DNA of 64,000 nt from Paenibacillus sp. R14(2021). Lineage in GTDB: Bacteria; Bacillota; Bacilli; Paenibacillales; Paenibacillaceae. This document shows, in pieces, positions 616 to 24,145 of this stretch (its first letter is position 1; each line of letters starts with the position of its first letter). Both the position numbers and the translations under genes were made by a program. Under the pieces are notes generated by a model. That model searched no databases. It was not told the DNA's origin and was given only the letters and a program-made list of their open reading frames with translations. The stretch is taken from NCBI RefSeq assembly GCF_019431355.1, contig NZ_CP080269.1, positions 1,612,001 to 1,676,000 of the forward strand, given 5' to 3'.

Positions 616-671
616 TTGACAATGGATCGCTGATCCATATAAAATGAACCTGTATCTGGATCAGCGATCCA
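616..671 (+). promoter_or_regulatory. TetR-controlled promoter of the SDR operon
   Basis: A -35 TTGACA (616-621) and -10 TATAAA (638-643) are 16 bases apart. The spacer is almost exactly the perfect palindrome ATGGATCGCTGATCCAT (622-638). A second site, TGGATCAGCGATCCA (657-671), follows 34 bases downstream, centre to centre. The same layout occurs at 28059-28102 and 16373-16420 beside other tetR copies, so the TetR proteins are the likely binders and would block RNA polymerase directly. The bases just upstream (604-614) still resemble the start of a tetR gene (CGCATAAAT), which suggests a divergent tetR once stood here. Confidence 0.7.
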
Positions 672-712
672 CAATATACAGCAAATTTGTGCAAACGAAG
701 GGAGAAATCATC

Positions 713-1447
713 ATGGGAAAGCTTGAAGGTAAGGTTGCAGTCATCACGGGTGGATCGAGCGGCTTGGCGCTGGCGAGCGCCAAGCGGTTCGTTGAAGAAG
801 GCGCCTATGTTTTCATCACGGGCCGGAGGCAGGAGGCGCTCGACGAGGCCGTCAAGCTGATTGGCCGGAATGTGACCGGCGTGCGCGGCGACTCGGCCAA
901 TCTCGACGACCTCGACCACCTGTTCGATACAGTAAAGCGGGAAAAGGGCAAGATCGATGTTCTATTCACGAGCGCTGGCACGGGCGAAGCCGGCCCACTG
1001 GGCGAGATTACCGAGCAGCACTTCGATGCGACCTTCGGCCTGAATACGCGCGGAACGCTTTTTGCGGTCCAGAAGGCGTTGCCGCTGTTCAACGATGGCG
1101 GATCGATCATCATGACCGGGTCAGTTACTTCGGTGAAAGGTTTTCCTGGTTTCGGCGTGTATGCGGCGAGCAAGGTGGCGTTGCGCTCATTCGCACGCAC
1201 TTGGCTCAACGAACTGAAGGGCAGGAATATCCGGGTGAACGTGCTGAGCCCGGGGCCGATCGCCACACCGATGCAGGACCAAGCTCTCGACGAGGAGACG
1301 AAGCGGATGTTCGAATCCGTGATCCCGCGGGGAAAGATGGGCCGTCCTGAGGAAATTGCTACGGCCGCGCTTTTTCTTGCTTCAGACGATTCGAGCTTCG
1401 TGAATGGGGTGGATTTGCCTGTCGACGGCGGCTTATCGGCCATCTGA
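713..1447 (+). CDS. SDR family oxidoreductase
   Basis: A 244-residue classical short-chain dehydrogenase starting at ATG 713, with GAAGGGAG about 10 bases upstream; a longer reading from 644 has no comparable ribosome site. It would use NAD(P)H to reduce a carbonyl or oxidise an alcohol; the substrate is unknown. The Rossmann motif is TGGSSGLA, so the third glycine of the usual TGxxxGxG is Ala. The catalytic YAASK and the C-terminal PVDGG are present. It heads a unit with the reductase at 1589 and lies behind a TetR-type operator promoter. A paralog lies at 27222-27956. GC-rich composition differs from the neighbouring small genes and suggests acquisition from outside. Confidence 0.88.
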   Translation: MGKLEGKVAVITGGSSGLALASAKRFVEEGAYVFITGRRQEALDEAVKLIGRNVTGVRGDSANLDDLDHLFDTVKREKGKIDVLFTSAGTGEAGPLGEITEQHFDATFGLNTRGTLFAVQKALPLFNDGGSIIMTGSVTSVKGFPGFGVYAASKVALRSFARTWLNELKGRNIRVNVLSPGPIATPMQDQALDEETKRMFESVIPRGKMGRPEEIATAALFLASDDSSFVNGVDLPVDGGLSAI

Positions 1448-1588
1448 GGTCACGCCGAAAAGCGTGTGTGGGGCTTGTCAACTTGACGAAGATGATCCGA
1501 GTTGTGTCGATAAGTATGGAATCCTGATTAGTTACCAATTTTAACATGGGGCCGTGGTTGATCAAAACGTCCCCTGAATGGAGAGTTC

Positions 1589-2185
1589 ATGAGCTATTCG
1601 ATTATTGGCTTTGGCGAGGTAGGCCAAGCACTCGCCCGAGCATTTGCAAGAAAGAACATCGATGTGACCGTCGCCAGCCGTCGCCCTCCCGGGATGTTGA
1701 TGCAGCAGGCACGAGCGATCGGCCCCACCGTTGTCCCTAGGACGCTGCAGGATGCAATCGCGTCCGACACGATCTTCCTGGCGGTTCCGTTTTGGGAACA
1801 TCGCGAAGTAGCGAAGCAGATCACAACCTGGCAGGGCAAGACGATTATCGACGCGACAAATACATTTGCTCCCGTTGAAGACCTGGATGGTCAACCGTCG
1901 TCCGCAGTTGTCGCCAAAGCGTTTACCGGCGCCAGGTTCGTAAAGGGCTTTAACCATCTGCCCGCTGCCGTTCTGGCCGCTGATCCGAGCGTGAATGGCG
2001 GCAGCCGCGTCGTGTTTTTATCAAGCGACGACGAAAATGCGGTGGCGCCGGTCGCGGTTCTGGCCGAACAACTCGGTTTCGCACCGATTGCGCTAGGACC
2101 GCTCAAGGATGGCGGCTCGCTCGTCCAGGCCAGGGGCAATACCTGGGCTGAACTGATCTTCCAGGATTTCGTCAAGTTCAAATAG
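1589..2185 (+). CDS. NADPH-dependent F420 reductase-like protein
   Basis: A 198-residue protein with an N-terminal Rossmann motif (GFGEVGQALARAFA) and the layout of the F420-dependent NADP oxidoreductase family (residues VKGFNHLPA and LVQARGNTW are typical). These proteins bind NADP(H); in Firmicutes the partner is usually not F420, so the substrate is open. Start ATG 1589 has TGGAGAG 4-10 bases upstream. It follows the SDR by 141 bases on the same strand and probably shares its TetR-controlled promoter. The paralog at 26547-27146 is similarly paired with an SDR, which shows the two genes travel as a module. Confidence 0.82.
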   Translation: MSYSIIGFGEVGQALARAFARKNIDVTVASRRPPGMLMQQARAIGPTVVPRTLQDAIASDTIFLAVPFWEHREVAKQITTWQGKTIIDATNTFAPVEDLDGQPSSAVVAKAFTGARFVKGFNHLPAAVLAADPSVNGGSRVVFLSSDDENAVAPVAVLAEQLGFAPIALGPLKDGGSLVQARGNTWAELIFQDFVKFK

Positions 2186-3060: not shown

Positions 3061-3205
3061 ATGTTGCGTTAAACTCCCGTTACTTCAATGAAAAAAACAG
3101 ACTGCCAATGCAATCTGCTCAATTCTGCTATTGTTCCCAGTTAGTGCAATAGTTGAAAACTGCTAATACGCTAGCCGAATGTAGACTGCCTGCTCGTTTA
3201 ACTAA
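3061..3205. repeat. Dispersed hairpin repeat, copy R1
   Basis: Contains two cores, TTAAACTCCCGTTACTTCAA (3069-3088) and CTATTGTTCCCAGTTAGTGC (3128-3147), and ends in CGTTTAACTAAT at the stop codon of the gene at 3202. It resembles the copies at 3736, 7967, 8881/10842/12680, 13388, 23128, 23556 and 24050. The stretch 2876-3060 before it is AT-rich and shows nothing I recognise. Confidence 0.6.
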
Positions 3206-3681
3206 TTACAAACGTCATTACTTTCTTTCTCTAACCATTGAAGATAATTAAATAGCTCTTTAGATTTAGCTTGAAACGTCTTCGAGTCATACCGAATCAC
3301 TATTTCATCTTTAATACCGGAGCTTGATGAAAATCCACTTCCATCGGCATTTCTTGTATGTAACCAATTATAAGCTTTCGAAATTGTCATTGTCTTTCCA
3401 TCATTCATAATAATTTTAATTACTGTCGGGTACTTATTAAATTCTGCTGAGCCATGGACAGGTTTTGAAGAGTTTATTCTACCGATTAAATTGAGAATGA
3501 TTGTTCTCTCTTGTTCATTAGTCATTTCGCACAATGGAGAATCCGGTGCTCCTGGAAAGTTCCTGACAACCTGCATTGATACAACATCTTCGACCTGTAC
3601 AATTTGCTTTGATGGTGACTTCCAAGCTGTCAGGATTGTGAGTGACAAGATAATTGTAAGTGCAATTTGAAAATTCTTCAT
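3202..3681 (-). CDS. Small exported protein of unknown function
   Basis: A 159-residue protein starting at ATG 3681 with GGAGG six bases upstream (a TTG two codons earlier lies closer to the ribosome site). Residues 1-20 are a signal peptide-like hydrophobic stretch (IALTIILSLTILTAW). Where a lipobox cysteine would be expected after LTA there is Trp, so the lipid anchor may have been lost or never existed. The rest is a soluble domain with a Cys near residue 50 and one at the C-terminus (NDVCN); I do not recognise the family. It stands alone between repeat copies R1 and R2 and its stop codon lies in the edge of R1. Confidence 0.65.
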   Translation of the reverse strand: MKNFQIALTIILSLTILTAWKSPSKQIVQVEDVVSMQVVRNFPGAPDSPLCEMTNEQERTIILNLIGRINSSKPVHGSAEFNKYPTVIKIIMNDGKTMTISKAYNWLHTRNADGSGFSSSSGIKDEIVIRYDSKTFQAKSKELFNYLQWLEKESNDVCN

Positions 3682-3735
3682 TACCAATCCTCCATTTTTG
3701 ATTTGGTATTATTTTCTCCAAATCAAATCGAAGTA

Positions 3736-3800
3736 TCCTGCCGTTAGCGTAATGAAAAATTGAGCAGTTGCCGTTGGCAACTACTCCAAGATGCTTTGAA
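3736..3800. repeat. Dispersed hairpin repeat, copy R2 (left part)
   Basis: Core CCTGCCGTTAGCGTAATGAA followed by the hairpin GCAGTTGCC/GGCAACT, then CTTTGAA, where IS110-type copy 1 interrupts it at the core CT. The right part of the repeat resumes at 5573 (CTATCGTTC). Confidence 0.6.
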
Positions 3801-3837
3801 CTCCCTCAGTACGATTCATTTTTCTCACGAATACTCG

Positions 3838-4152
3838 CTTATTCGCAGGATTTCACCCTTGCTAGATTTGCGGAAAGACTGTTTGGGCAACCCTGTTGAA
3901 GACCAGGACAACATGAAGGCGTGAGGAAATAGAGGGGGAGATTAAAACCCCATATCCTTCCATATGCTGCACGCATTCTCCACGCCGCCCCTGGAGGTTT
4001 TCACTCCCATGTCGGGGCGGGTTGATGCCCTCTCATTCCTTCGTTACGCCTGTCCAGGGGGTGGAGGCCGGTCTTGCTATCGTTACGGGTCGGTGCCCTT
4101 TGATTCAATCACATCCGGTACCCCGTGCTTTCTTTGAAATCCCGCGAATAAG
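3838..4152 (-). ncRNA. Candidate IS-encoded bridge/seekRNA, copy 1
   Basis: The non-coding end of the IS is bounded by an 18-base complementary pair, CTTATTCGCAGGATTTCA (3838-3855) with TGAAATCCCGCGAATAAG (4135-4152). In between, TGCTATCGTT (4075-4084) is identical to the right-hand target flank at 5571-5580, and CTGTTGAA (3893-3900) resembles the left-hand target TTTGAA. IS110/IS1111 elements are known to encode guide RNAs with two target-pairing segments. The strand is assumed to be that of the transposase. Confidence 0.6.
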
Positions 4153-4186
4153 CCAAAATTCGTACGACGAACGGTAAGTTATCGAC

Positions 4187-5457
4187 TTAAGCTGCTAGCT
4201 GAAATGGCATCGTTTTGTGGGGATTGTAGGCTTCACTACTACGAGCCATCGCTACAAGAATGCGAGCCAGTTTACCACAGAGCTTCATCAGAGACCTCAT
4301 TTTCTTCATCTTCTTCACCTGAACATTGTATGCATGCATCGCCTTGAACTCCGGATTATTCGCTGTCAAGCTCAATGTCATCATGAATATGAAACGTCGA
4401 AGGCGAGATCGTCCGCGTTTACTAATCTTCATCTGTCCAGTCCATTTGCCCGAGCTTGCCTCTGCGAGGTTAAGACCAGCATGACGCAACAAAGCATTGC
4501 CATGAACAAAGCCGCTTAAATCCCCAGCTTCGCCCAGAATACCAGCCAATGAAATGGCACTAATCCCTTTGACAGCAAGCATGGATCTAGCAAAAGGGAT
4601 GCGGTCCAAAACTGCAATAATCTCTGTCTCCACATCTTGCAGCTGCTCACACGCTAAGTCATATTCAGCGAGAAGTTGCTTTAAGTGAAGCTTGTACGCA
4701 TGCGTTGCTTGAGTAGAGCCAACAGAATGTCTAGCAAGAGCAATTAGGGCCTGAGCCTTCTTGTTTCCAGACTGACGTTGCATAATGGATTTCCACCCTC
4801 TCACCACGTCCTGAGGCGTTAAATTTCTCAGTTCTTCTGGTGTCGGGAACAGACGTAGTGTCGCCAATGAACCTCTGCACATCAGCTTCTTAAAAACTTG
4901 ACGTAGCTCAGGGAACACGACGTCAACCCAACGATGAATTTGGTTCTTTGCACTAACGAGTCTTGTAACGACGGAGTCCCGGTTTGAGAGAAAGACCCGA
5001 AGCTCTTCAAAAGCTTCAGACGTTTTGCGAATGAACGAATAGTAGCCGTTTTTAACCATGTCTGCGATGACAAGAGCATCTTTTTTATCGCTCTTAGATG
5101 GCGTATTGTCTCGGTTTTCCTTATTCTTTTTCACGAGATGAGGATTAACAAGAACAACTTCAAATTGCTTCTCAGATAGCCATCTGGAGACGCTTAGTCA
5201 GTAATGCCCCGTTGGTTCCATACCTATGATAGCGGAATTAAAGTTATGGGCTGCCTGCAACGACTGGATCCAGCGATGAAGAATCTGAAAACCTTCTTCG
5301 TCATTTGAGAAAGATAGGGGATTGCCGATTACGATCCCGCGAAGTTTACTGCACGTGCAACGTGCGTTAGTTGTGCGATGTCGATCCCGACGACGAGATG
5401 CTGAGCGGTAATTTTTTCAATGAGTTGATTTTGTTTGTCCTGCGATTTAAACTTCAT
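4187..5457 (-). pseudogene. IS110-family transposase, copy 1, disrupted
   Basis: Same gene as 11291-12562 (DEDD-type N-terminal catalytic domain, C-terminal transposase_20 domain with RHAGLNLAEASSGKW). Two lesions relative to copy 2: a TGG to TGA nonsense change at 5198-5200 (in the HYWLSVSRW stretch) and loss of one A near 5342. The intact frame only resumes at 5134, leaving 315 residues without the N-terminal catalytic Asp region. It cannot make an active recombinase, but its RNA region is intact and could be served by copy 2. Confidence 0.85.
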
Positions 5458-5574
5458 AGTAGAGCGTCCTCCTGGATGATGGGATTTTAAGGGCTATGAC
5501 CCGTTGCGTACTCCCATCGTACCGAGGCGCTTTTCTTTTTGCAAAGCTCTTAATTAACGCTCTACAGGAATGCT

Positions 5575-5889
5575 ATCGTTCTCCGTTACTCGACGATTTT
5601 AATCATAATAGTCTAGACTTGCCCCTAAAACCAGTTAGATAAAGCAAGAATTTGATTGATTCAATGCACCTGTAACTATGCCAGTTGGGAAGAACATACG
5701 AACGAAGAAGGAAGATACCTGCAATTATTGCGTTCAGGCCAACGCATTAAAACCTCACTCTTCTTTCCTTCGCTCGTTATATGCAATTAAAGCTGTTTTC
5801 ACTCGGTATATGCCATCAAGAGCCGTGTCCCGCAGGAAAGTCAGCTCATATTCTACAGTGAATGCCTATGGCAGACACAAGGAGCTGAG
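5575..5889. other. Gap between IS copy 1 and glycosyltransferase genes
   Basis: The first 20 bases are the right end of repeat R2 (ATCGTTCTCCGTTAC). The rest shows no convincing gene. A 73-codon frame at 5678-5899 overlaps the next gene's start, lacks a ribosome site and resembles nothing known to me. Confidence 0.4.
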
Positions 5890-6921
5890 GTGCGCTTGAG
5901 AATTGTACAAATCTCGACGAATACGATTCCTGTCCCGCCAAAGAAATATGGGGGTACCCAGCGTGACGTGCATTATTTGACAGAGGAGCTTGTTAAACGG
6001 GGGCATGAGGTGTTTCTGTTCGCCAAGAAGGGCTCGACGTCGCACGCGACCCAAACGTTCGAATACGATTCGAACGATCGAACTAAGCAGTTGGATTTCA
6101 TTATCAAGAATATGCCAAAGGACATTGACATCATCCATGATCATTACGGCATCGTCGCGAAAGCGAACCCTCCAATTCCGACCATTTGCCAATCCCATTC
6201 GAATTGGATCAGGTCGAACGTGCAGACCCGGGTCTACGTCAGTAAATTCATATTGCGGAAGTACGGTAAAGGAAAAGGTTACGCCATTCACAACGGCATG
6301 AGCATGGACGACTATACGTTCCGGAAAAAAAAGCAAAAGTACCTGCTCTTCCTCGGAAGGCTAATCAAGGAGAAAGGCGTTCACCTGGCCATCAAGGTAG
6401 CCAAGAAGGCAAATCGAAAGCTTATCATCGCTGGCACGCTGAATGACAAGAAATACTACCGCGCCAAGATCAAGCCACATCTAGGTAAAAAAATCCGCTA
6501 CATCGGCCCTGTCGGCGGCGACCGTAAACGCAGGTTGCTGGCCAACGCGCACTGCGTCCTGTTCACCTCTACCTGGGATGAGCCGTTTGGGCTCGTCCTC
6601 GTCGAAGCAATGGCGAGCGGCACGCCCGTACTTGGCTTCCGCCGTGGCGCCGTTCCTGAAGTGCTTCGCGGCGTGCCGCGGCTCGTATGCGACACGACGA
6701 CCGGAATGGCAGCGAAGGTCCGCAACCGCAAGCGGCTACCCAGTGCCCGCGCGTTAAGGAGGTACGCTCGAACCCGGTACTCCGAGCATAACATGACGGA
6801 TGCATTCTTGCGGCTGTACCAGAAGGTGATCAACAAGAAGCTATACAAAATCAAGCAAAAAACGTTATGGAATCGGCGCCAAGCAAAGCTTCAACCTACG
6901 TCGAATGGAGATGAAGGTTAG
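5890..6921 (+). CDS. GT4-family glycosyltransferase
   Basis: A 343-residue GT-B glycosyltransferase (group 1). The N-terminal domain has the GGTQRDVHYL acceptor-side motif and the C-terminal domain has LFLGRLIKEKGVHLAI and the nucleotide-sugar binding EX7E region (DEPFGLVLVEAMASGTPV). It would transfer a sugar from a nucleotide donor onto a surface glycan or spore-coat glycoconjugate. Start GTG 5890 has AAGGAG five bases upstream; TTG 5896 (MRIVQIST) is an alternative. The C-terminal tail is rich in Lys/Arg. It abuts the GT2 gene (TAG-ATG), so the two form an operon. The pair is flanked by direct IS110 copies, which fits horizontal acquisition. Confidence 0.85.
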   Translation: MRLRIVQISTNTIPVPPKKYGGTQRDVHYLTEELVKRGHEVFLFAKKGSTSHATQTFEYDSNDRTKQLDFIIKNMPKDIDIIHDHYGIVAKANPPIPTICQSHSNWIRSNVQTRVYVSKFILRKYGKGKGYAIHNGMSMDDYTFRKKKQKYLLFLGRLIKEKGVHLAIKVAKKANRKLIIAGTLNDKKYYRAKIKPHLGKKIRYIGPVGGDRKRRLLANAHCVLFTSTWDEPFGLVLVEAMASGTPVLGFRRGAVPEVLRGVPRLVCDTTTGMAAKVRNRKRLPSARALRRYARTRYSEHNMTDAFLRLYQKVINKKLYKIKQKTLWNRRQAKLQPTSNGDEG

Positions 6922-7611
6922 ATGATTACCGTAATCGCATGCACGAATAGGTCCTCCTGCATCGACAACGTGTTCAAAAATTACGACCGACAGCTCTGGA
7001 AGAATAAGAAAATGATCATCGTCCTGAACAATGACAAAATGGACATCGAGGTTTACAAGGAGCGAGCCGGCCACTATTCGGAAGGCGAAGTGACTGTTTA
7101 CCAGCTGCCTCAGAAATACCGGCTCGGCAAATGCCTGAATTACGCTATCAAATACGCGGACAACGGCTTCATCGCCAAGTTCGATGACGATGATTACTAT
7201 GGCCCTAAATTTCTTCGAGAGGCAGCTCGCGCAATTAAACACGGTAGAGCATCTATCGTCGGTAAACACACGGCTTACCTCTATTTCCAATCTAAGCGAG
7301 CGCTGATGGTGTTCCGGCGCGGCAACGAGTGGAAATACAAGCGTAAAGTCAAAGGCGGCACACTGGTATTTCGCAGATCAGTATGGCGACATGTCAAATT
7401 TCCCGCTAACCGGAAAGCCGGCACGGATGCCAGATGGCTTTCTCGCTGCATTCGGCGAGGCTTCCGCGTCTATTCCGTCTCCAAACGACACTATGTCTGC
7501 ATCCGCCGTAAAAATTGGAAGAGCCATACGCAGAAAAAAAGCACGCACCGGTATATGCGGCACTGCAGGTTCGTACGCCGTACAAAAAAATTCCAACGTT
7601 ACGTCAAATAG
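6922..7611 (+). CDS. GT2-family glycosyltransferase
   Basis: A 229-residue GT-A glycosyltransferase: residues 1-10 (MITVIACTNR) begin the nucleotide-binding fold, and KFDDDDYYGP at about 89-98 is the metal-binding DXD region. A later GTLVFRRSVW segment is typical of spore-coat type glycosyltransferases (CgeD-like). The C-terminus is unusually basic and may bind polyanionic polymer. The start codon directly follows the stop of the GT4 gene. Substrate unknown; a role in spore-surface or exopolysaccharide glycan is inference from resemblance and from the partner gene. Confidence 0.82.
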   Translation: MITVIACTNRSSCIDNVFKNYDRQLWKNKKMIIVLNNDKMDIEVYKERAGHYSEGEVTVYQLPQKYRLGKCLNYAIKYADNGFIAKFDDDDYYGPKFLREAARAIKHGRASIVGKHTAYLYFQSKRALMVFRRGNEWKYKRKVKGGTLVFRRSVWRHVKFPANRKAGTDARWLSRCIRRGFRVYSVSKRHYVCIRRKNWKSHTQKKSTHRYMRHCRFVRRTKKFQRYVK

Positions 7612-7740
7612 TGCCTGAGAAATAGATAACGAAAACAAAGTCAATCGAACGGCCGGTTGACCTTAATTGATTTTCCAATGGGAAGAAAGAAATCATCCCA
7701 TTCCCTAGCTGGGTACGGAAACGTTAGAATGATTAACATA

Positions 7741-7775
7741 CCGTCACACTCCGAAAAATAAGTATCAGGCTGACC
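7741..7775. repeat. Second dispersed repeat (CCGTCACACTCCGAAAAATAAGT)
   Basis: CCGTCACACTCCGAAAAATA followed by AGTATCAGGCTGACC recurs at 23033-23068 as CCGTCACATTCCGAAAATTA followed by AGTATTAGACTAACC. Shorter relatives lie at 22972 and 23094. Function unknown. The surrounding gap 7612-7966 otherwise holds only the terminator at 7823. Confidence 0.5.
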
Positions 7776-7822
7776 AACAAATTTTAGAATGAAGAATCTG
7801 AAAAATTTCGCTACGAAGCAAC

Positions 7823-7860
7823 AAAAAAGCAACTTCCTTCGTGGAGAAGTTGCTTTTTTG
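7823..7860. terminator. Bidirectional terminator
   Basis: AAAAAAGCAACTTC pairs with GAAGTTGCTTTTTT around a short loop. The A/T runs on both sides suit termination from either direction; it probably ends the glycosyltransferase operon. Confidence 0.7.
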
Positions 7861-7966
7861 TGGGTTGTCTCTATTATTTCATCTCCAGGGTTTCTAAGAT
7901 TGGTTTAGTAGCCTTCCAGTTGAGTACACCATTATCTTCAATAATGCCAATTGTTAGATCATGTCG

Positions 7967-8012
7967 GCAGCCTGATGACGTTATGCGAATTCCGATAGTC
8001 TAGCCGTTGCAA
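7967..8012. repeat. Dispersed hairpin repeat, copy R3 (partial)
   Basis: GGCAGCCTGATGACGTTATG, then CTAGCCGTTGCAATCGGCAAC. It matches the hairpin half of the repeat family (compare GGCAGCCTGATGTCGTTGTG at 24098). It has replaced the end of the phosphotransferase-like gene at 7981. Confidence 0.5.
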
Positions 8013-8400
8013 TCGGCAACAACTTCACGTCTTTCGAGAGTTGTGCTGCGTTCTGTATATTACGGGCTAATTCCACTTTCTGTTTTAGGACAGGCGATCT
8101 TCCATTTCGCTCTACATCTAGTTCATATTTATGAATATGATAATGTAGTTCAGTAAACTCTTTTGTTAAACGATATAGTTCGTTAGGATGTTGAACAATC
8201 ATACGAAGCATAGTCGAGCCCTCGATCCGTTCAAACACGATACCTTTCCTAGGTTCAAAGTCGATTAAATCGTACGCTCTGGGCGAAGGGATTCCAAGGA
8301 AGGCGACAATTTGATTTACCTCATATTCATATCTGATCGCTTCCACAATCACAGAATTTAAAATTGGAATTGGTTCCAGGCTGAACACCTTGTTTTAACA
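7981..8400 (-). pseudogene. Aminoglycoside phosphotransferase-like fragment
   Basis: About 135 residues with the pattern of APH/choline-kinase family N-lobes: YEVNQIVAFLGIPSPRAYDL and GIVFERIEGSTMLR. The N-terminal strand region is in another frame or lost, and the C-terminal catalytic lobe (HGDxxxxN, DxD) is absent. The last 13 codons (LLPIATARLSEFA) are read from repeat R3, so the gene was cut by the repeat. No kinase activity is expected. Confidence 0.55.
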
Positions 8401-8421
8401 ATAGGCTTGCGTGAGTATGCC

Positions 8422-8811
8422 TTAAATCATGAAATGTAAAGTGAGATCTCTTATGGCAGTATGCATTTGAGTTGCTGTATCAATCGATCTATGGTCCTGA
8501 ACAATCACCTCTTCAAAAGTATCCTCAAATACCTCTCTGATTTGTCTTTCAAGTTTTATTACATCTAAATCGTCCATATGTTTTGTAATATAAATCGATA
8601 TTGTTCTAATTTCCGATTCATATTCGTCCTCGGGGCATTCCATTGCTAACAGCAGGACGGGATCCCAAAGATCGATATATCTTTTTACAATCTCAATGAC
8701 AGGCTTTGGATCAAAGGAAAGGTTGTTCAGATATTCCTTTTCCTCGCTTACTTCTTTCTGGACAATCTTCATTTTTTCATCAAATGAAAGGTCTTTATTG
8801 AATTTTGTCAT
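8422..8811 (-). CDS. DUF1871-like small protein
   Basis: A 129-residue acidic protein with WDPVLLLAMECPEDEYESEI, the pattern of the DUF1871 family of small Firmicute proteins of unknown function. No signal peptide or membrane segment. Start ATG 8811 has GGAGG upstream. The C-terminus beyond about residue 105 is unlike the family core and may be altered. It lies between repeats R3 and R4, the usual setting of the small orphan genes here. Confidence 0.6.
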   Translation of the reverse strand: MTKFNKDLSFDEKMKIVQKEVSEEKEYLNNLSFDPKPVIEIVKRYIDLWDPVLLLAMECPEDEYESEIRTISIYITKHMDDLDVIKLERQIREVFEDTFEEVIVQDHRSIDTATQMHTAIRDLTLHFMI

Positions 8812-8880
8812 ATGTCCTCCAACTCCGTTTTATTAACCTCCAAATTCTCCAAGTATATCCTATACATAATTACAATGGAT

Positions 8881-8892
8881 TTGTTGCGTTAA
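8881..8892. repeat. Dispersed repeat R4, outer part beyond the intron
   Basis: TTGTTGCGTTAA matches the start of the other cores (TTGTTGCGGTAA at 13430). Joined to CTGCCCGTTAG at 10841, it rebuilds a normal repeat core once the group II intron is removed. Confidence 0.5.
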
Positions 8893-10841
<1,949 letters not shown>

Positions 10842-10905
10842 TGCCCGTTAGTTGAACGAAAGGCTGCCGTTCGTGCCCGGCAGCCTTGACCTGGTGACTG
10901 TTCAA
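10842..10905. repeat. Dispersed repeat R4, central hairpin part
   Basis: Between intron and IS copy 2: CCCGTTAGTTGAACGAAA, then the hairpin GGCTGCCG/CCGGCAGCC, then CTGTTCAA next to the IS core CT. It continues after the IS at 12680. Confidence 0.6.
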
Positions 10906-10942
10906 CTCCCTCAGTACGATTCATTTTTCTCACGAATACTCG

Positions 10943-11256
10943 CTTATTCGCAGGATTTCACCCTTGCTAGATTTGCGGAAAGACTGTTTGGGCAACCCTG
11001 TTGAAGACCAGGACAACATGAAGGCGTGAGGAAATAGAGGGGGAGATTAAAACCCCATATCCTTCCATATACTGCACGCATTCTCCACGCCGCCCCTGGA
11101 GGTTTTCACTCCCATGTCGGGGCGGGTCGATGCCCTCTCATTCCTTCGTTACGCCTGTCCAGGGGGTGGAGGCCGGTCTTGCTATCGTTACGGGTCGGTC
11201 CCTTTGGTTCAATCACATCCGGTACCCCGTGCTTTCTTTGAAATCCCGCGAATAAG
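10943..11256 (-). ncRNA. Candidate IS-encoded bridge/seekRNA, copy 2
   Basis: Closed by the same 18-base complementary arms as copy 1 (10943-10960 with 11239-11256). TGCTATCGTT at 11180-11189 is identical to the right target flank at 12676-12685. It differs from copy 1 by a few bases, including one deletion near 11218. Transcription and strand are assumed, not shown. Confidence 0.6.
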
Positions 11257-11290
11257 CCAAAATTCGTACAACAAACGGTAAGTTATCGAC

Positions 11291-12562
11291 TTAAGCTGCT
11301 AGCCGAAACGGCATCATTTTGTGAGGATTGTAGGCTTCACTACTACGAGCCATCCCTACAAGAATGCGAGCCAGTTTACCACAGAGCTTCATCAGAGACC
11401 TCATTTTCTTCATCTTCTTCACCTGAACATTGTATGCATGCATCGCCTTGAATTCCGGATTATTCGCTGTCAAGCTCAATGTCATCATGAATATGAAACG
11501 TCGAAGGCGAGATCGTCCGCGTTTACTAATCTTCATCTGTCCGGTCCATTTGCCCGAGCTTGCCTCTGCGAGGTTAAGGCCAGCATGACGCAACAAAGCA
11601 TTGCCATGAACAAAGCCGCTTAAATCCCCAGCTTCGCCGAGAATACCAGCCAATGAAATGGCACTAATCCCTTTGACAGCAAGCATGGATTTAACAAAAG
11701 GGATGCGATCCAAAACTGCAATAATCTCTGTCTCCACATCCTGCAGCTGCTCACAAGCTAAGTCATACTCAGCGAGAAGTTGCTTTAAGTGCAGCTTGTA
11801 CGCATGCGTTGCCTGTGTAGAGCCAACAGAATGACTAGCAAGAGCAATTAGGGCCTGAGCCTTCTTGTTTCCAGGCTGACGTTGCATAATGGATTTCCAC
11901 CCCCTCACAACATCCTGCGGTGTTAAATTTCTCAGTTCTTCTGGTGTCGGGAACAGACGTAGTGTCGCCAATGAACCTCTGCACATCAGCTTCTTAAAAA
12001 CTTGACGTAGCTCAGGGAACACGACGTCAACCCAACGATGAATTTGGTTCTTTGCACTAACGAGTCTTGTAAAGACGGAGTCCCGGTTTGAGAGAAAGAC
12101 CCTAAGCTCTTCAAAGGCTTCAGACGTTTTGCGAATGAACGAGTAGTAGCCGTTTTTAACCATGTCTGCGATGACAAGAGCATCTTTTTTATCGCTCTTA
12201 GATGGCGTATTGTCTCGGTTTTCCTTATTCTTTTTCACGAGATGAGGATTAACAAGAACAACTTCAAATTGCTTCTCAGATAGCCATCTGGAGACGCTTA
12301 GCCAGTAATGCCCCGTTGGTTCCATACCTATGATAGCGGAATTAAAGTTATGGGCTGCCTGCAACGACTGGATCCAGCGATGAAGAATCTGAAAACCTTC
12401 TTCGTCATTTGAGAAAGATAGGGGATTGCCGATTACGATCCCGCGAAAGTTTACTGCACGTGCAACGTGCGTTAGTTGTGCGATGTCGATCCCGACGACG
12501 AGATGCTGAGCGGTAATTTTTTCAATGAGTTGATTTTGTTTGTCCTGCGATTTAAACTTCAT
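11291..12562 (-). CDS. IS110-family transposase (DEDD recombinase)
   Basis: A 423-residue intact transposase. The N-terminal RuvC-like DEDD domain begins VVGIDIAQLTHVARA, with PTGHYWLSVSRWL and later KSDKKDALVIADM supplying acidic residues. The C-terminal transposase_20 domain (KGISAISLAGILGEAGDL) is followed by RHAGLNLAEASSGKW and a basic RGRSRLRRFIF stretch, with the serine nucleophile region at ASSGKW. With a guide RNA it would catalyse insertion at CT. It may also mobilise the defective copy 1. Start ATG 12562 follows GGAGG. Confidence 0.93.
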   Translation of the reverse strand: MKFKSQDKQNQLIEKITAQHLVVGIDIAQLTHVARAVNFRGIVIGNPLSFSNDEEGFQILHRWIQSLQAAHNFNSAIIGMEPTGHYWLSVSRWLSEKQFEVVLVNPHLVKKNKENRDNTPSKSDKKDALVIADMVKNGYYSFIRKTSEAFEELRVFLSNRDSVFTRLVSAKNQIHRWVDVVFPELRQVFKKLMCRGSLATLRLFPTPEELRNLTPQDVVRGWKSIMQRQPGNKKAQALIALASHSVGSTQATHAYKLHLKQLLAEYDLACEQLQDVETEIIAVLDRIPFVKSMLAVKGISAISLAGILGEAGDLSGFVHGNALLRHAGLNLAEASSGKWTGQMKISKRGRSRLRRFIFMMTLSLTANNPEFKAMHAYNVQVKKMKKMRSLMKLCGKLARILVGMARSSEAYNPHKMMPFRLAA

Positions 12563-12679
12563 AGTAGAGCGTCCTCCTGGATGATGGGATTTTAAGGGCT
12601 ATGACCCGTTGCGTACTCCCATCGTACCGAGGCGCTTTTCTTTTTGCAAAGCTCTTAATTAACGCTCTACAGGAATGCT

Positions 12680-12705
12680 ATCGTTCCCAGTTAGCGTAAT
12701 GATTT
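12680..12705. repeat. Dispersed repeat R4, right core
   Basis: ATCGTTCCCAGTTAGCGTAAT resumes directly after the IS and completes the core that begins left of the element. Confidence 0.55.
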
Positions 12706-12818: not shown

Positions 12819-12865
12819 ATAAATAATATCATAGTTCGAAATACTATCAATTGGAGGTTTATAAC

Positions 12866-13330
12866 GTGGCAACGATTTCTGATGTCTCTAAAGACTTAGA
12901 AAGCATGACGGTGTTTATTTCCGATTTAATCCCTTACTCTGATGATGTCCTTAGCAAACCACTAGTTGGTACATGGTCGATTCAAGACCTTATCAGTCAT
13001 ATTATGGGTTGGGACAAGAACTTCATTAAGACAATTAATCAGATCATAAACAATGAGGAAGCAATACTTGAAGAACATCACGATGTGCAAGCATTTAATG
13101 AAGCATCCGTTACTTTCGGTAGAAAAATGAAATCACATGATTTATTGAAGGGAGCAATTTCGCAACGCAAACAATTGATCTTAAAACTCAATTTGGTTTC
13201 AGAATCAGCATTCATTAGACAATTCCATAATAGTGCGTATACGTTGGAAACCTTTTTACAAGAAATGTTTATTGGTCATGATAGGCATCACGAAGCACAA
13301 ATAAAGAACTACCTTGAAATGGTTAGTTAG
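12866..13330 (+). CDS. DinB-family protein
   Basis: A 154-residue four-helix-bundle protein of the DinB/DfsB type: LVGTWSIQDLISHIMGWDKN is the first signature and GHDRHHEAQIKNYL the second, with His residues placed for a metal site. Such proteins are often damage-inducible or thiol-linked; the substrate here is unknown. GTG 12866 is preferred because GGAGG lies eight bases upstream; the longer TTG start at 12851 would include the ribosome site. A consensus promoter with a possible SOS box lies upstream and a terminator follows. Confidence 0.78.
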   Translation: MATISDVSKDLESMTVFISDLIPYSDDVLSKPLVGTWSIQDLISHIMGWDKNFIKTINQIINNEEAILEEHHDVQAFNEASVTFGRKMKSHDLLKGAISQRKQLILKLNLVSESAFIRQFHNSAYTLETFLQEMFIGHDRHHEAQIKNYLEMVS

Positions 13331-13387: not shown

Positions 13388-13528
13388 TCAGTTAGCGTAA
13401 TGATGGCTGCCGAATCGGTAGTTCACACCCTTGTTGCGGTAAACTGTCTGTTACTTCAATGGCCAGGAGCAGGTCGCCGCGGCATCTTTTCCATCAATTT
13501 CACTATCGTTTCCCGTTAGCTTAATTGA
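13388..13528. repeat. Dispersed hairpin repeat, copy R6
   Basis: Three cores in a row: TTCAGTTAGCGTAATGATGG, TTGCGGTAAACTGTCTGTTA and CTATCGTTTCCCGTTAGCTT, with hairpin GGCTGCC/GGTAGTT after the first. It ends one base before the stop codon of the gene at 13529. Confidence 0.6.
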
Positions 13529-14740: not shown

Positions 14741-15487
14741 TTAATGCATGCCGCCGGATGCGCTGATTCTCTCACCCGTAAGCCATGCAGCTTCATCAGA
14801 GGCAAGAAAGACTACTGTCGGGGTTATATCTTCCGGTTTTCCGAATCGGCCGCCCAGCGGGGTAGCAGCAGCAAGTGTCCTTCCGGCCTCACTGGCCACG
14901 AAACCGGCGTTGCCTTCCGTATCCGTAAAGCCCGGAGCAACGGTATTGACTCGGATGTTACGCGGTCCGAGTTCCTTCGCGAGTGCCATCGTCATCGTAT
15001 CTACCGCGCCTTTACTCGACGCGTAAAGCATGGTAGTTGGAACAGGATTTTTACTTGCGATCGTGCCGATATTAATAATGCTTCCGCCTTCTGTAGGGAA
15101 ATGTTTCAACGCTTGCTGCGAGGTCAGTATCGGCCCAAGAACGTTAATGTTAAAGTGGCGATGGAACAACTCCTCCGTCACGTCCTCTAATGGCTGGAAT
15201 TCGAAGATGCCGCCGTTGTTGACCAGGATATTCGGCGTGCCAAGAGTGTTTCTAGTCTCCTCGAACAACCGCTCGACGTCCGCCGCTTTGGACATATCAC
15301 CCTGAACCGCGATTGCTCGGCCTCCTCCTTTGGTAATTTCAGTTACGACATGTTCCGCCCCCTGCCTGCTAGAGGAGTAATTGACAACGACGGCCGCACC
15401 AGCCTCCGCCAATCCCTTTGCGATGCCAGCACCGATCCCCTTCGAAGCACCCGTTACTATTGCCACTTTACCTGTTAAATTTGCCAT
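14741..15487 (-). CDS. SDR family oxidoreductase (glucose 1-dehydrogenase-like)
   Basis: A 248-residue classical short-chain dehydrogenase. TGASKGIGAGIAKG is the cofactor loop, NNGG the structural motif (usually NNAG) and YASSK the catalytic Tyr-Lys pair. The C-terminal LTGERISASGGMH is typical for the glucose/beta-ketoacyl-type subfamily. It is more distant from the 713 and 27222 SDRs than those are from each other. Substrate unknown. Start ATG 15487. A fragment of a second SDR tail lies just upstream at 15585. Confidence 0.88.
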   Translation of the reverse strand: MANLTGKVAIVTGASKGIGAGIAKGLAEAGAAVVVNYSSSRQGAEHVVTEITKGGGRAIAVQGDMSKAADVERLFEETRNTLGTPNILVNNGGIFEFQPLEDVTEELFHRHFNINVLGPILTSQQALKHFPTEGGSIINIGTIASKNPVPTTMLYASSKGAVDTMTMALAKELGPRNIRVNTVAPGFTDTEGNAGFVASEAGRTLAAATPLGGRFGKPEDITPTVVFLASDEAAWLTGERISASGGMH

Positions 15488-15584
15488 TTATAAACTCCTT
15501 CATAATATGTTTTAAACCTTTTCTGTTTTTCAGTTATAAATCGTTATATTATCCATGTGAACAAGGGAACTTATCACGTATTCC

Positions 15585-15655
15585 TCAAAAGATACCATCG
15601 GAAGCATTGATTCTCTCACCTGCCAGACATCTGGCATTAGCGAAAGCGATTGTGC
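15585..15655 (-). pseudogene. Remnant of an SDR C-terminus
   Basis: The minus strand reads ARCLAGERINASDGIF then a stop at 15585, clearly related to AAWLTGERISASGGMH of the neighbouring SDR. Only about 20 codons remain. It suggests that a second SDR gene here was deleted. Confidence 0.5.
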
Positions 15656-15679
15656 GCTTTTTTTCTGGTCAAAGGTGTA

Positions 15680-16153
15680 TTAGGACAATATTCTTTTATA
15701 GGTGGAGAGAACACCGGCATGAAATCCTTCGTGGTACATATTGTAACGCAGCGATTGCTCCGGAGTTACCAGAGAGAGTCCAGTGGACGTATTAATAGGA
15801 TCTACACTTTCGTTCAAACGGTCTAATGGATATTGTTTGCGGATTCTGTCCAGTTGTTCCGTAAGCAGAGATTTTAGTTCTGGGAATGTCGCGTTAGGAA
15901 GCGAAGCAGGGTAATCCAACGGACCCTTACCGGATCCGAACCGTTCAACAAACCCTTCCGGCAGATTCATCGGAAGATTCAGTTGCGAGAGCGTCATATA
16001 CTCTGTAACGAAATAGATATGGCCAAGCTGCCAATGGATATTATTGCGAAAACCATCGGGAAAACGATTCACGAGTTCCTCAGTCATGCCTTCCATTGCT
16101 AGCAACGTTTGTGCTCTAATAATGCCTAATTCATCAAAAATCGTAGCATTCAA
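15680..16153 (-). CDS. DinB-family protein
   Basis: A 157-residue DinB_2-type protein: HWQLGHIYFVTEYMTL early and MYHEGFHAGVLSTYKRI at the C-terminus supply His residues of the probable metal site. Function unknown; related proteins act as thiol-dependent transferases. ATG 16153 has AAGGAG upstream. A strong minus-strand promoter with a TetR-type operator at 16391-16420 could drive it with a leader of about 240 bases. Confidence 0.78.
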   Translation of the reverse strand: MNATIFDELGIIRAQTLLAMEGMTEELVNRFPDGFRNNIHWQLGHIYFVTEYMTLSQLNLPMNLPEGFVERFGSGKGPLDYPASLPNATFPELKSLLTEQLDRIRKQYPLDRLNESVDPINTSTGLSLVTPEQSLRYNMYHEGFHAGVLSTYKRILS

Positions 16154-23127: not shown

Positions 23128-23165
23128 TATTTAACTAACGTTCCCAATTAGCGTAATCGGCTGTT
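23128..23165. repeat. Dispersed hairpin repeat, copy R7 (partial)
   Basis: CGTTCCCAATTAGCGTAATC then GGCTGTTGCCGG. The core overlaps the stop codon of the gene ending at 23148. Confidence 0.5.
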
Positions 23166-23456: not shown

Positions 23457-23555
23457 TATCGTTCCTAAAGATGAAAGGATGCTAAAATATCCCCAACACC
23501 TTTTCCCTCCTAAGCAATAGTATTTTATAAATCATATGGTACCACATATTGGAAG

Positions 23556-23651
23556 TATTCTGCCAGTTAGCTTAATGAAAAATGGAACAGCTGCCAACGG
23601 CAAACTGCTGCATGAATCGTTGAACTATCATGTTCCCAGTTAGTTTAATTC
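23556..23651. repeat. Dispersed hairpin repeat, copy R8 (uninterrupted)
   Basis: TCTGCCAGTTAGCTTAATGA, hairpin CAGCTGCC...GGCAAACTGCTG, then GTTGAACTATCATGTTCCCA and GTTAGTTTAATTCAA. This copy shows the empty IS110 target: TTGAA-CT-ATC. The last core contains the stop codon of the gene at 23640. Confidence 0.65.
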
Positions 23652-23996
23652 AATCGCGACACATGCGATCTGACAATCCATCATGGGTATCTCCATTGAA
23701 CATTTATAAAGTGAAACACCATTGATTTCAATATCTTCAATCGTTATCTCATGCAAGAAGAAGTCCATTTCACCTGGTTTGACAGGGACATTACCCTTCA
23801 TACTTTCCAGCCAGGTGTTGATACTTACCGAAAAACAATCCCTAAAGAAAATGACCTTATCATTTTCATCATTTTCTAAATCCCCATATCTCATTTGAAC
23901 TAAATGTGATACATGATCGTATGAGAAGCCCTTTAACCTAGTATCAATATAATCTGTTCCTAATTGTTCAATCAGTACCTGACTACTAGGTCTCAT
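23640..23996 (-). CDS. Hypothetical protein
   Basis: A 118-residue acidic soluble protein without signal peptide or membrane segment; I do not recognise the family. The C-terminal half looks like beta strands (FFLHEITIEDIEINGVSLYK) and it resembles in size the orphan immunity-type proteins common in Firmicute accessory regions, but nothing in its neighbourhood supports that role. Start ATG 23996; no strong ribosome site (TTGAGAGG lies about 9-16 bases upstream). The TAA stop is part of repeat R8. Confidence 0.55.
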   Translation of the reverse strand: MRPSSQVLIEQLGTDYIDTRLKGFSYDHVSHLVQMRYGDLENDENDKVIFFRDCFSVSINTWLESMKGNVPVKPGEMDFFLHEITIEDIEINGVSLYKCSMEIPMMDCQIACVAIELN

Positions 23997-24049: not shown

Positions 24050-24145
24050 AATTAAACTATCCTGCCCGTTTAACTGAACGAAGGCTGCAGTTAGCCGGCA
24101 GCCTGATGTCGTTGTGCTATAGTACCCGTTAATTCAATAGAAAAT
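24050..24145. repeat. Dispersed hairpin repeat, copy R9 (uninterrupted)
   Basis: AAACTATCCTGCCCGTTTAA, hairpin GGCTGC...GCAGCC region (24082-24102), GTTGTGCTATAGTACCCGTT then AATTCAATAG. Complete copy with two cores and a central hairpin. Confidence 0.6.

Follow-up and report, generated by a model that had tools for sequence, protein, structure and literature searches.

Integrons are the textbook device by which genes are captured as cassettes. The R' box of their attC sites has the consensus GTTRRRY, the R'' of a site is expected to be complementary to the start of its own cassette, and group IIC introns are known to occupy attC sites. Insertion sequences (IS) of the IS1111 type are already known to insert in integron attC sites; the portion of PMC11187229 used here describes ISKpn4, ISPst6 and ISPa25 as seekRNA elements with a non-coding region downstream of the transposase gene and with insertions in attC or attC-like sites. 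IS621, in the portions of PMC11208160 and PMC11208158 used here, has a two-loop bridge RNA, a CT core and handshake letters next to the core, and inserts in repeated palindromic REP (repetitive extragenic palindromic) sequences. In Firmicutes integrons are reported to be very rare, with one complete integron and a few CALINs (clusters of attC sites lacking integron-integrases) in the part of PMC9024848 used here. Here, two IS110-family copies are described from a 64,000-nucleotide stretch (the window, genome positions 1612001-1676000) of the 5.98-Mb, single-contig genome of Paenibacillus sp. R14(2021). Both interrupt an attC-like site, and they are probably IS1111-like elements that carry guides for their own site and occupy the junctions of cassette arrays likely shuffled by an array-linked XerC/D-type recombinase.

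The Paenibacillus elements resemble ISKpn4, ISPst6 and ISPa25 in the downstream non-coding region, the order of the guides and the choice of attC-like sites. They differ in a transposase of 423 amino acids (aa), outside the 330 to 350 aa given for the IS1111 subgroup and these elements in the same portion of PMC11187229, in a candidate inverted repeat about 45 bp inside the left end, in the presence of several lineages at several positions of the site, and in the host, a member of the Paenibacillaceae with non-canonical arrays. With IS621 they share the two-loop RNA, the CT core and the core-adjacent handshake, whereas they target an attC-like site, and their RNA follows the transposase gene and takes the opposite strand with respect to the CT. 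The arrays recall integron arrays and CALINs in their oriented hairpin sites, gene-sized spacing, breakpoints in the GTT box and cassettes common to arrays and species. In contrast to integrons, no IntI was found over the cut-off in the genomes searched (see below), an XerC/D-like recombinase appears linked to the arrays, most genes run against the site direction and the box mostly reads GTTAG(C/T). The window also holds a group II intron in a Paenibacillaceae array; as in group IIC-attC introns, its 5' end directly follows an attC-like hairpin half. Together with its guide, the IS represents a new lineage of an already known type, and the surprising part is the combination of attC-like arrays with a linked recombinase that is not recognised as an IntI. 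A search of the open-licence literature, preprints excluded, found no paper on Paenibacillus cassette arrays or on a Paenibacillus bridge RNA.

IS110-family copies and the guides of their predicted bridge RNA

Copy A (10906..12677, minus strand, one CT core included), whose ends were set by the comparison of nine genomic copies, carries an open transposase gene (11291-12562, minus strand). In a domain search of copy A, the product matched PF01548 (DEDD_Tnp_IS110, 112.7 bits) and PF02371 (Transposase_20), and it scored 208 bits with NCBIfam NF033542 against a cut-off of 140, which places it in the IS110 family. Copy C (3801..5572, minus strand, one CT core included) has an interrupted transposase frame. 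In both elements the gene lies on the minus strand and is followed by about 385 non-coding bases, the long downstream region of the IS1111 subgroup. At the core one end reads TTGAA-CT-CCCTCAG in copy C, with a TTCAA variant in copy A, and the other reads GGAATG-CT-ATCGTT. These junctions bear out the initial annotation of the window, according to which both copies break one repeat at the same CT; all of its words were found where it had placed them, including the empty site GTTGAACTATCAT at 23619-23631. By eye, CCTCGGTACGAT and ATCGTACTGAGG are candidate subterminal inverted repeats of copy A; the left one lies 45 bp inside the element, and at the right end 1 bp separates the repeat from the core.

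The genome contains 30 matches to PF01548. A third near-identical copy (1541819-1543597) occupies the kind of site seen at copies A and C; the fourth (D, 1014672-1016447) is more distant and has the same target class. Nine genomic copies of the copy A lineage (A to I) were compared together with their flanks, as had been proposed beforehand. Copies A, B and C are nearly identical, with the transposase frame open in A and interrupted in B and C. In the non-coding end, copies D, E and F share 87 to 88% identity with A; more distant still are G, H and I. Relatives from other genomes were limited to the 80 best among at least 583 confirmed places, in Paenibacillus, Cohnella, Bacillus, Neobacillus, Salipaludibacillus and other hosts, and within these 80 the closest named transposase loci are those of Paenibacillus. 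Rfam at gathering scores, run on window positions 1-30000 and four array stretches, detected no RNA family at the IS ends and only the group II intron.

The predicted bridge RNA core of copy A (11053..11238, minus strand), defined by a 66-sequence alignment (A1), comprises a target loop followed by a donor loop and reads, in the direction of transcription, 5'-...GAUUGAAC-CA-AAGGG...CCCGUAACGAUAG-CA.... The guide for the TTGAA side of the target lies at 11207..11218 (minus strand, RNA 5'-AUGUGAUUGAAC), and the guide for the ATCGTT side, together with the core AG and the handshake CA, at 11180..11189 (minus strand, RNA 5'-AACGAUAGCA). Both covary with their flanks, and by copy comparison the same two guides are present in copy C at 4103-4114 and 4075-4084 (minus strand). 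The first guide stretch of the RNA complements the right flank on its top strand. The second reproduces the left flank (top strand), the AG core, which is CT on the opposite strand, and the opening letters of the left IS end. The top-strand guide lies 5' of the bottom-strand guide, as in the IS1111 subgroup.

The word TGCTATCGTT, which the initial annotation had noted as identical to the target flank, occurs at 4075, 5571, 11180 and 12676 and at no other place in the 64 kb on either strand. Because it consists of the flank top strand, the AG core and the first IS letters, it is to be read as a guide, namely a target guide with its core in the predicted bridge RNA, on the downstream side of the transposase gene. 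A second word, CTGTTGAA, had been noted for its resemblance to the other half of the target; it is present at 3893-3900 and was rejected as the second guide because it lies in a non-conserved stretch, is absent in copy D and has the wrong sense for pairing with the other strand. The other guide is instead the TTGAA word at 11207-11218 and 4103-4114, which in the form TTGAA(T/C) stands about 20 nucleotides from the TGCTATCGTT guide within one internal loop. Copies E to I carry a left guide (A/T)CCGTTAG and a right guide CATTAAAC or a variant of it, and their flanks are mostly CCGTTAG and TTTAATG or variants, which is another position of the same site; the left side of copy E (AACATTAG) is the exception.

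In the 66 aligned RNAs both guides fall inside one internal loop closed by a covarying stem. This target loop is bounded by an outer CCGG/CCGG-type stem and an inner GGG/CCC hairpin, and the outer stem shows double changes from CG to UA in 15 rows and from GC to AU in 14. Over the 27 pairs scored (3 of the 30 predicted pairs lie inside the guides and were omitted), 97.6% of the cells are paired, compared with 94.2% after shuffling, and 69 cells carry double changes, compared with 16.8 in shuffled alignments and 0 to 10 in slid structures. A second loop with the same type of hairpin, the predicted donor loop (11107..11144 of copy A, minus strand), matches the CATTCC and GAGGGAG ends of the element: GGAATG at 11139-11144 fits its own left end, and GGGAG within 11107-11116 fits its own right end. 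Two rows of A1, L116 and L129, both from Paenibacillus sp. 1_12, run into another IS end in the donor-loop half, where after AACGAAG the bridge RNA continues into another IS left end. Either an assembly artefact or tandem insertion in the donor loop may lie behind these junctions, which are at or near contig ends.

Further evidence for guiding comes from the relatives. Among 89 elements (the 80 relatives and the nine copies of this genome), guides could be read in 86, and both guides and both flanks in 69; 3 were dropped for want of a readable guide and 17 more for want of a readable flank. Copy D, one of these 17, was added by hand for the pair and joined-flank tests, and L095, also one of the 17, is in none of the 69. 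The guides of the 69 elements match their own flanks at a mean of 5.41 of 9 positions on the left and 6.17 of 9 on the right, compared with means of 3.98 and 4.65 for permuted flanks (maxima of 2000 permutations, 4.41 and 5.07). Relatedness was controlled with 25 non-overlapping pairs of elements whose transposase DNA is at least 80% identical and whose guides differ. At the 64 differing guide positions, fits to the element's own target number 96 of 128 and fits to the partner's target, after swapping, 18 of 128; position by position, the own target was better in 45, the swapped one in 4, and 15 were tied. In all 84 readable elements, 5 of the 89 being unreadable, the handshake letter beside the core is the same as the letter (C, G or A) with which the element's own left end begins. 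When the two IS flanks are joined, they score as an attC-like site in 38 of 70 cases, compared with 0 of 500 controls. The proposal that the non-coding end holds a guide for the target is thereby upheld, guide and target covarying across relatives as expected of IS110-family RNAs, here at the level of sequence.

attC-like sites and oriented cassette arrays

The initial annotation regarded the target as a dispersed chromosomal repeat. The repeat is real; it is not scattered, but the attC-like site of oriented cassette arrays. In a repeat search of the genome the hits formed a small number of clusters, each of which had, with rare exceptions, a single orientation. With a weight matrix of the conserved half (TTGAACTATCGTTCCCCGTTAGCTTAATG, threshold 12 bits, trained on the array regions that it scored), the sites were oriented 22/22 on the plus strand in 1536001-1676000, 16/16 plus in 3430001-3480000, 24/24 minus in 5763001-5833000 and 2/2 minus in 3400001-3412000; 7 of these 64 are halves severed by an IS. 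The 36 kb of the window outside the array (28-64 kb) contain no site at 12 bits or more.

The full site has the layout CTGCCCGTTAG-(L'')-variable hairpin-TTGAACTAWC-GTTCCC-GTTAG, with hairpins that diverge in sequence between sites and ends that are conserved. Hairpin folding of 100 sites gave a mean z, relative to mononucleotide shuffles, of -2.44, compared with -0.71 for 100 control stretches, and z fell below -3 in 40 sites and 6 controls. Of 8 sites folded singly, one (L210:8026-8120) gives a complete attC-like fold, in which R''/R', unpaired spacers, L''/L' and a variable stem follow one another as in attC.

In the window, copy C separates the left part of a site (3734..3802, plus strand) from its right part (5573-5595), and copy A does the same to a site (10842..10907, plus strand; right part 12678-12701) whose 5' half is adjoined by the intron. 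Conserved halves were located at 3123..3151 (plus strand), where it forms one boundary of the 159/161-aa cassette, and, by the weight matrix, at 13498..13526 and 23130..23158 (both plus strand). The uninterrupted site that contains the empty site lies at 23556..23652, and the last site in the window at 12 bits at 24052..24080, both on the plus strand.

Whole genes are shared between arrays. The cassette at 3137..3802 of the window (minus strand, 161-aa open reading frame [ORF] 3202-3687) has a second copy in array R2, so that the 159/161-aa gene cassette at 1615137-1615802 corresponds to 3440554-3441218 with 97.3% identity over 667 bp. A 304-aa gene at 1539414-1540561 is 99.1% identical to 5817567-5818714, its neighbouring stretch lies on the opposite side of the gene in the second array, and in a second member of the genus (L249) it is the only gene between two sites. 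Two further shared stretches are 1604103-1604755 and 3464050-3464701 (98.6%), and 1550499-1551533 and 5772114-5773148 (99.0%). Of nine boundaries displayed, 4 fall inside GTTAG of the conserved half, with letters differing just outside. A fifth separates the 304-aa gene from its neighbour and lies in a 5' half, at CTGCCC|(G/T)T. Gene-length intervals mostly have their longest ORF opposed to the sites: 28 of 35 intervals in this genome, a few of which contain an IS or intron gene, and 23 of 27 from five stretches of other genomes, where the sites are oriented 12/0, 0/5, 0/11, 0/6 and 14/1. By sequence comparison, the arrays thus share with integrons the oriented hairpin sites and the breakpoint in the GTT box, and depart from them in that most cassette genes do not run along the attC direction. 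At the level of sequence, the data show covariation of guide and target, an RNA fold with covarying pairs, arrays of oriented sites, near-identical cassettes shared by arrays and several GTTAG breakpoints.

Matches to a sequence model built from 25 sites (R1) were found in 22 of 22 genomes of the genus, this one included, at an E value of 0.01, with 3 to 112 per genome among the matches listed, and in 51 of 88 genomes drawn from the family at 1e-6. Judged by reading, window positions 644-2185, 5890-7611, 12851-13330 and 14741-16153 carry array genes that resemble accessory cargo, such as those for short-chain dehydrogenases, DinB/ClbS-like proteins and glycosyltransferases.

An array-linked recombinase and competing explanations

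A 280-aa tyrosine recombinase is encoded at 3474023-3474865, near the end of one array; it is similar to XerC, XerD and XerA and scores below their cut-offs (196/335, 193/330 and 186/220 bits). Truncated relatives lie inside one array of this genome and one array of another. A scored site is present within the locus in 14 of 24 recombinase loci (12 when the 24 are reduced to 21 distinct places); of 4 further loci, 1 has such a site. Among 11 displayed recombinase genes, a scored site lies about 100 bp upstream in 5, and about 3 more are recognisable by eye. In the family draw, all 14 genomes with the recombinase have sites, compared with 37 of 74 without it (Fisher p = 2.3e-4, uncorrected for relatedness), and site counts are higher with the recombinase outside the focal genus as well (p = 3e-5, likewise uncorrected). 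As judged from these sequences, the XerC/D-like recombinase is linked to the arrays.

Many of the array recombinase genes are preceded by a lone site module about 95 bp upstream and then by a conserved leader, which in L250 to L277, within the 150 bases before the start, reads AACCTCCC ... GGGAGGTTTTGTT before the ATG, with variants. This lone site and leader may be an attI candidate, possibly a regulatory hairpin. Another tyrosine recombinase, of 328 aa (L193:1165-2151), has the best integron-integrase score of this genome, below threshold. It was discounted, as the nearest listed site is about 45 kb away and the match to the model breaks off.

Four explanations of these data, beginning with the guided IS in recombinase-shuffled arrays preferred here, differ in how much of the evidence they accommodate. 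A canonical integron origin, in which the sites are attC (a CALIN) and are moved by an ordinary IntI, lost here or supplied from elsewhere, is unlikely. The attC-like fold of L210:8026-8120, the orientation of the arrays, the GTT-box breakpoints and the occupation of the sites by group II introns and IS, as in integrons, are all consistent with such an origin, which would expect the genes to follow the site direction and the box to follow GTTRRRY; most genes run the other way, and that consensus fits 2 of the 64 scored sites, 40 of which read GTTAG(C/T). Nor does R'' fit the start of its own cassette (5.40 of 10 positions, compared with 5.76 for the next and 5.64 for permuted ones), as would be expected of an integron. 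The few CALINs reported in Firmicutes (PMC9024848, in the part used here) would favour canonical attC, as would NF040815 ("site-specific tyrosine recombinase/integron integrase"), which gives the linked recombinase 186 bits. This value remains under the cut-off of 220, and it is a recombinase below the IntI cut-off that is linked to the arrays. The integron integrase model TIGR02249 stayed below its cut-off in this genome (best 110 of 265 bits) and gave no match at 1e-50 in the 22 genus genomes, in a search in which no control gave a match.

A REP-like hairpin or miniature inverted-repeat transposable element that spreads by self-copying, with arrays as an accident of regional insertion, is improbable. 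It would account for a hairpin in many copies, and other IS110-family elements target REPs in the parts of PMC1525189 and PMC11208158 used here; it would not account for one orientation per array, for whole genes common to arrays, for several breakpoints within the site or for hairpin types that diverge while the ends stay conserved. Descent from a REP system with its associated tyrosine transposase (RAYT) was rejected, as Y1_Tnp/RAYT (PF01797) had 0 matches in the genome, the control matching in 5 of 14. Very improbable is a transposase protein that reads the junction alone, the matching non-coding words being relics or coincidence. All elements do have a related transposase, and L155 and L157 sit in sites that their guide does not match, but guide and target letters change together between transposase genes at least 80% identical (96/128 against 18/128), the RNA fold is conserved with compensating changes, and the use of RNAs of this kind is known from IS110 and IS1111 elements (PMC11187229 and PMC11208160, in the parts used here).

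Several results weigh against guided IS in recombinase-shuffled arrays. On the side of the guides, the donor-loop handshake letter fits the flank in only 34 of 78 elements, and 32 of the 70 joined flanks have a low site score, some of them, by eye, with a one-base indel or the 5' half only. The initial annotation had raised the case of one non-coding end in unrelated targets: the average flank matches given above speak otherwise, and two Salipaludibacillus copies, L155 (3 and 4 of 9) and L157 (0 and 2 of 9), are mismatched. They belong to four Salipaludibacillus/Alkalihalobacillus copies with one common guide, of which L154 and L164 match 5 and 8 of 9; in the mismatched copies the guide may have changed after insertion, or the insertion may have been off-target. 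More widely, L153 to L158 and L164 have one common guide and several targets, only part of which match it.

On the side of the sites, the mean folding energy differs little from that of the controls (-12.4 against -11.3), the uninterrupted site, folded over 23552-23648, folds weakly (z -0.78), and RNAalifold found no consensus pairs on the 25-site alignment, so that R1 scores sequence alone. The remaining 4 of the nine boundaries lie elsewhere, one fading in the hairpin and one cut by another IS, and neither end of the 1550499-1551533 stretch (one at ACTGCCCGTT) falls in a scored site on both sides. As for the recombinase, sites are absent within 1.5 kb from 10 of the 24 loci and 3 of the 4 further ones. 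These include the intact gene of this genome (L250), 1.7 kb from the nearest scored site, of 13 bits, and among six control loci two overlapping ones share one 13-bit hit. The genome comparisons ignore relatedness, and at 1e-50 the recombinase has no match in genomes G045 and G090, which carry 46 and 41 sites.

Proposed mechanism and other elements in the site

In the proposed mechanism, the RNA would be produced and loaded into the transposase, one loop would pair with the two junction strands at the CT (AG) core, a second loop would pair with the IS ends once joined, and the IS circle would insert between them, duplicating only the core. The linked tyrosine recombinase would act on the hairpin sites at the GTTAG box, so that cassettes could pass between arrays. 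Abundant and widespread junctions would offer a safe landing place, and a few changes of guide letters would let different IS lineages reach different junction positions. Since guide-matched IS stand in the junctions of arrays likely moved by a recombinase, two gene-shuffling systems likely meet at one DNA site. A broader proposal, which we put forward tentatively and at somewhat less than even chances, is that Paenibacillaceae have a non-integron form of cassette exchange, with hairpin junctions that have a GTTAG crossover box and lie at the 5' end of each gene, and with an XerC/D-like tyrosine recombinase that acts on them, has its own attI-like site and can ride in the array; several IS110-family lineages with reprogrammed guides would parasitise different positions of this junction. 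Oriented attC-like arrays with a recombinase of another type and no recognised IntI would be a second route to cassette arrays, and the Paenibacillus arrays would be a large unexplored gene reservoir. The IS in the junctions provide a large set of natural guide-target pairs, with handshake letters and with guides that differ between close relatives, from which targeting rules could be learned and compact new bridge recombinases found.

Other elements use the same site. The group II intron of the window (8893..10841, minus strand; Rfam RF02003 and RF00029) has its 5' end after ...CAACTAACGGGCA of an attC-like 5' half, and related introns were observed at 1609129-1611080 and 1536742-1538697. All three meet the same point of the 5' half, ...AACTAA(C/A)GGGCA|GTGCG. 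In a search with the intron of the window, which covered close relatives of this one intron, intron starts follow AACTAACGGGCA and in one case AACTAAAGGGCA. A sister IS lineage, J, with a GT core, has copies at 1579944, 3464868, 2355626 and 1040298; its guides, CCTGCCC, CGTTTCCC or CCGTTAAC, match by eye its own flanks, which are other positions of the same site. Also by eye, lineage K (L003, L006 and L009) sits at TAACGGGC-AG-(G/A)TTAA(T/C)G, and the IS110-family elements L001, L008 and L020 touch such a site, the last with apparent terminal inverted repeats (ATGAACGAGGCGG).

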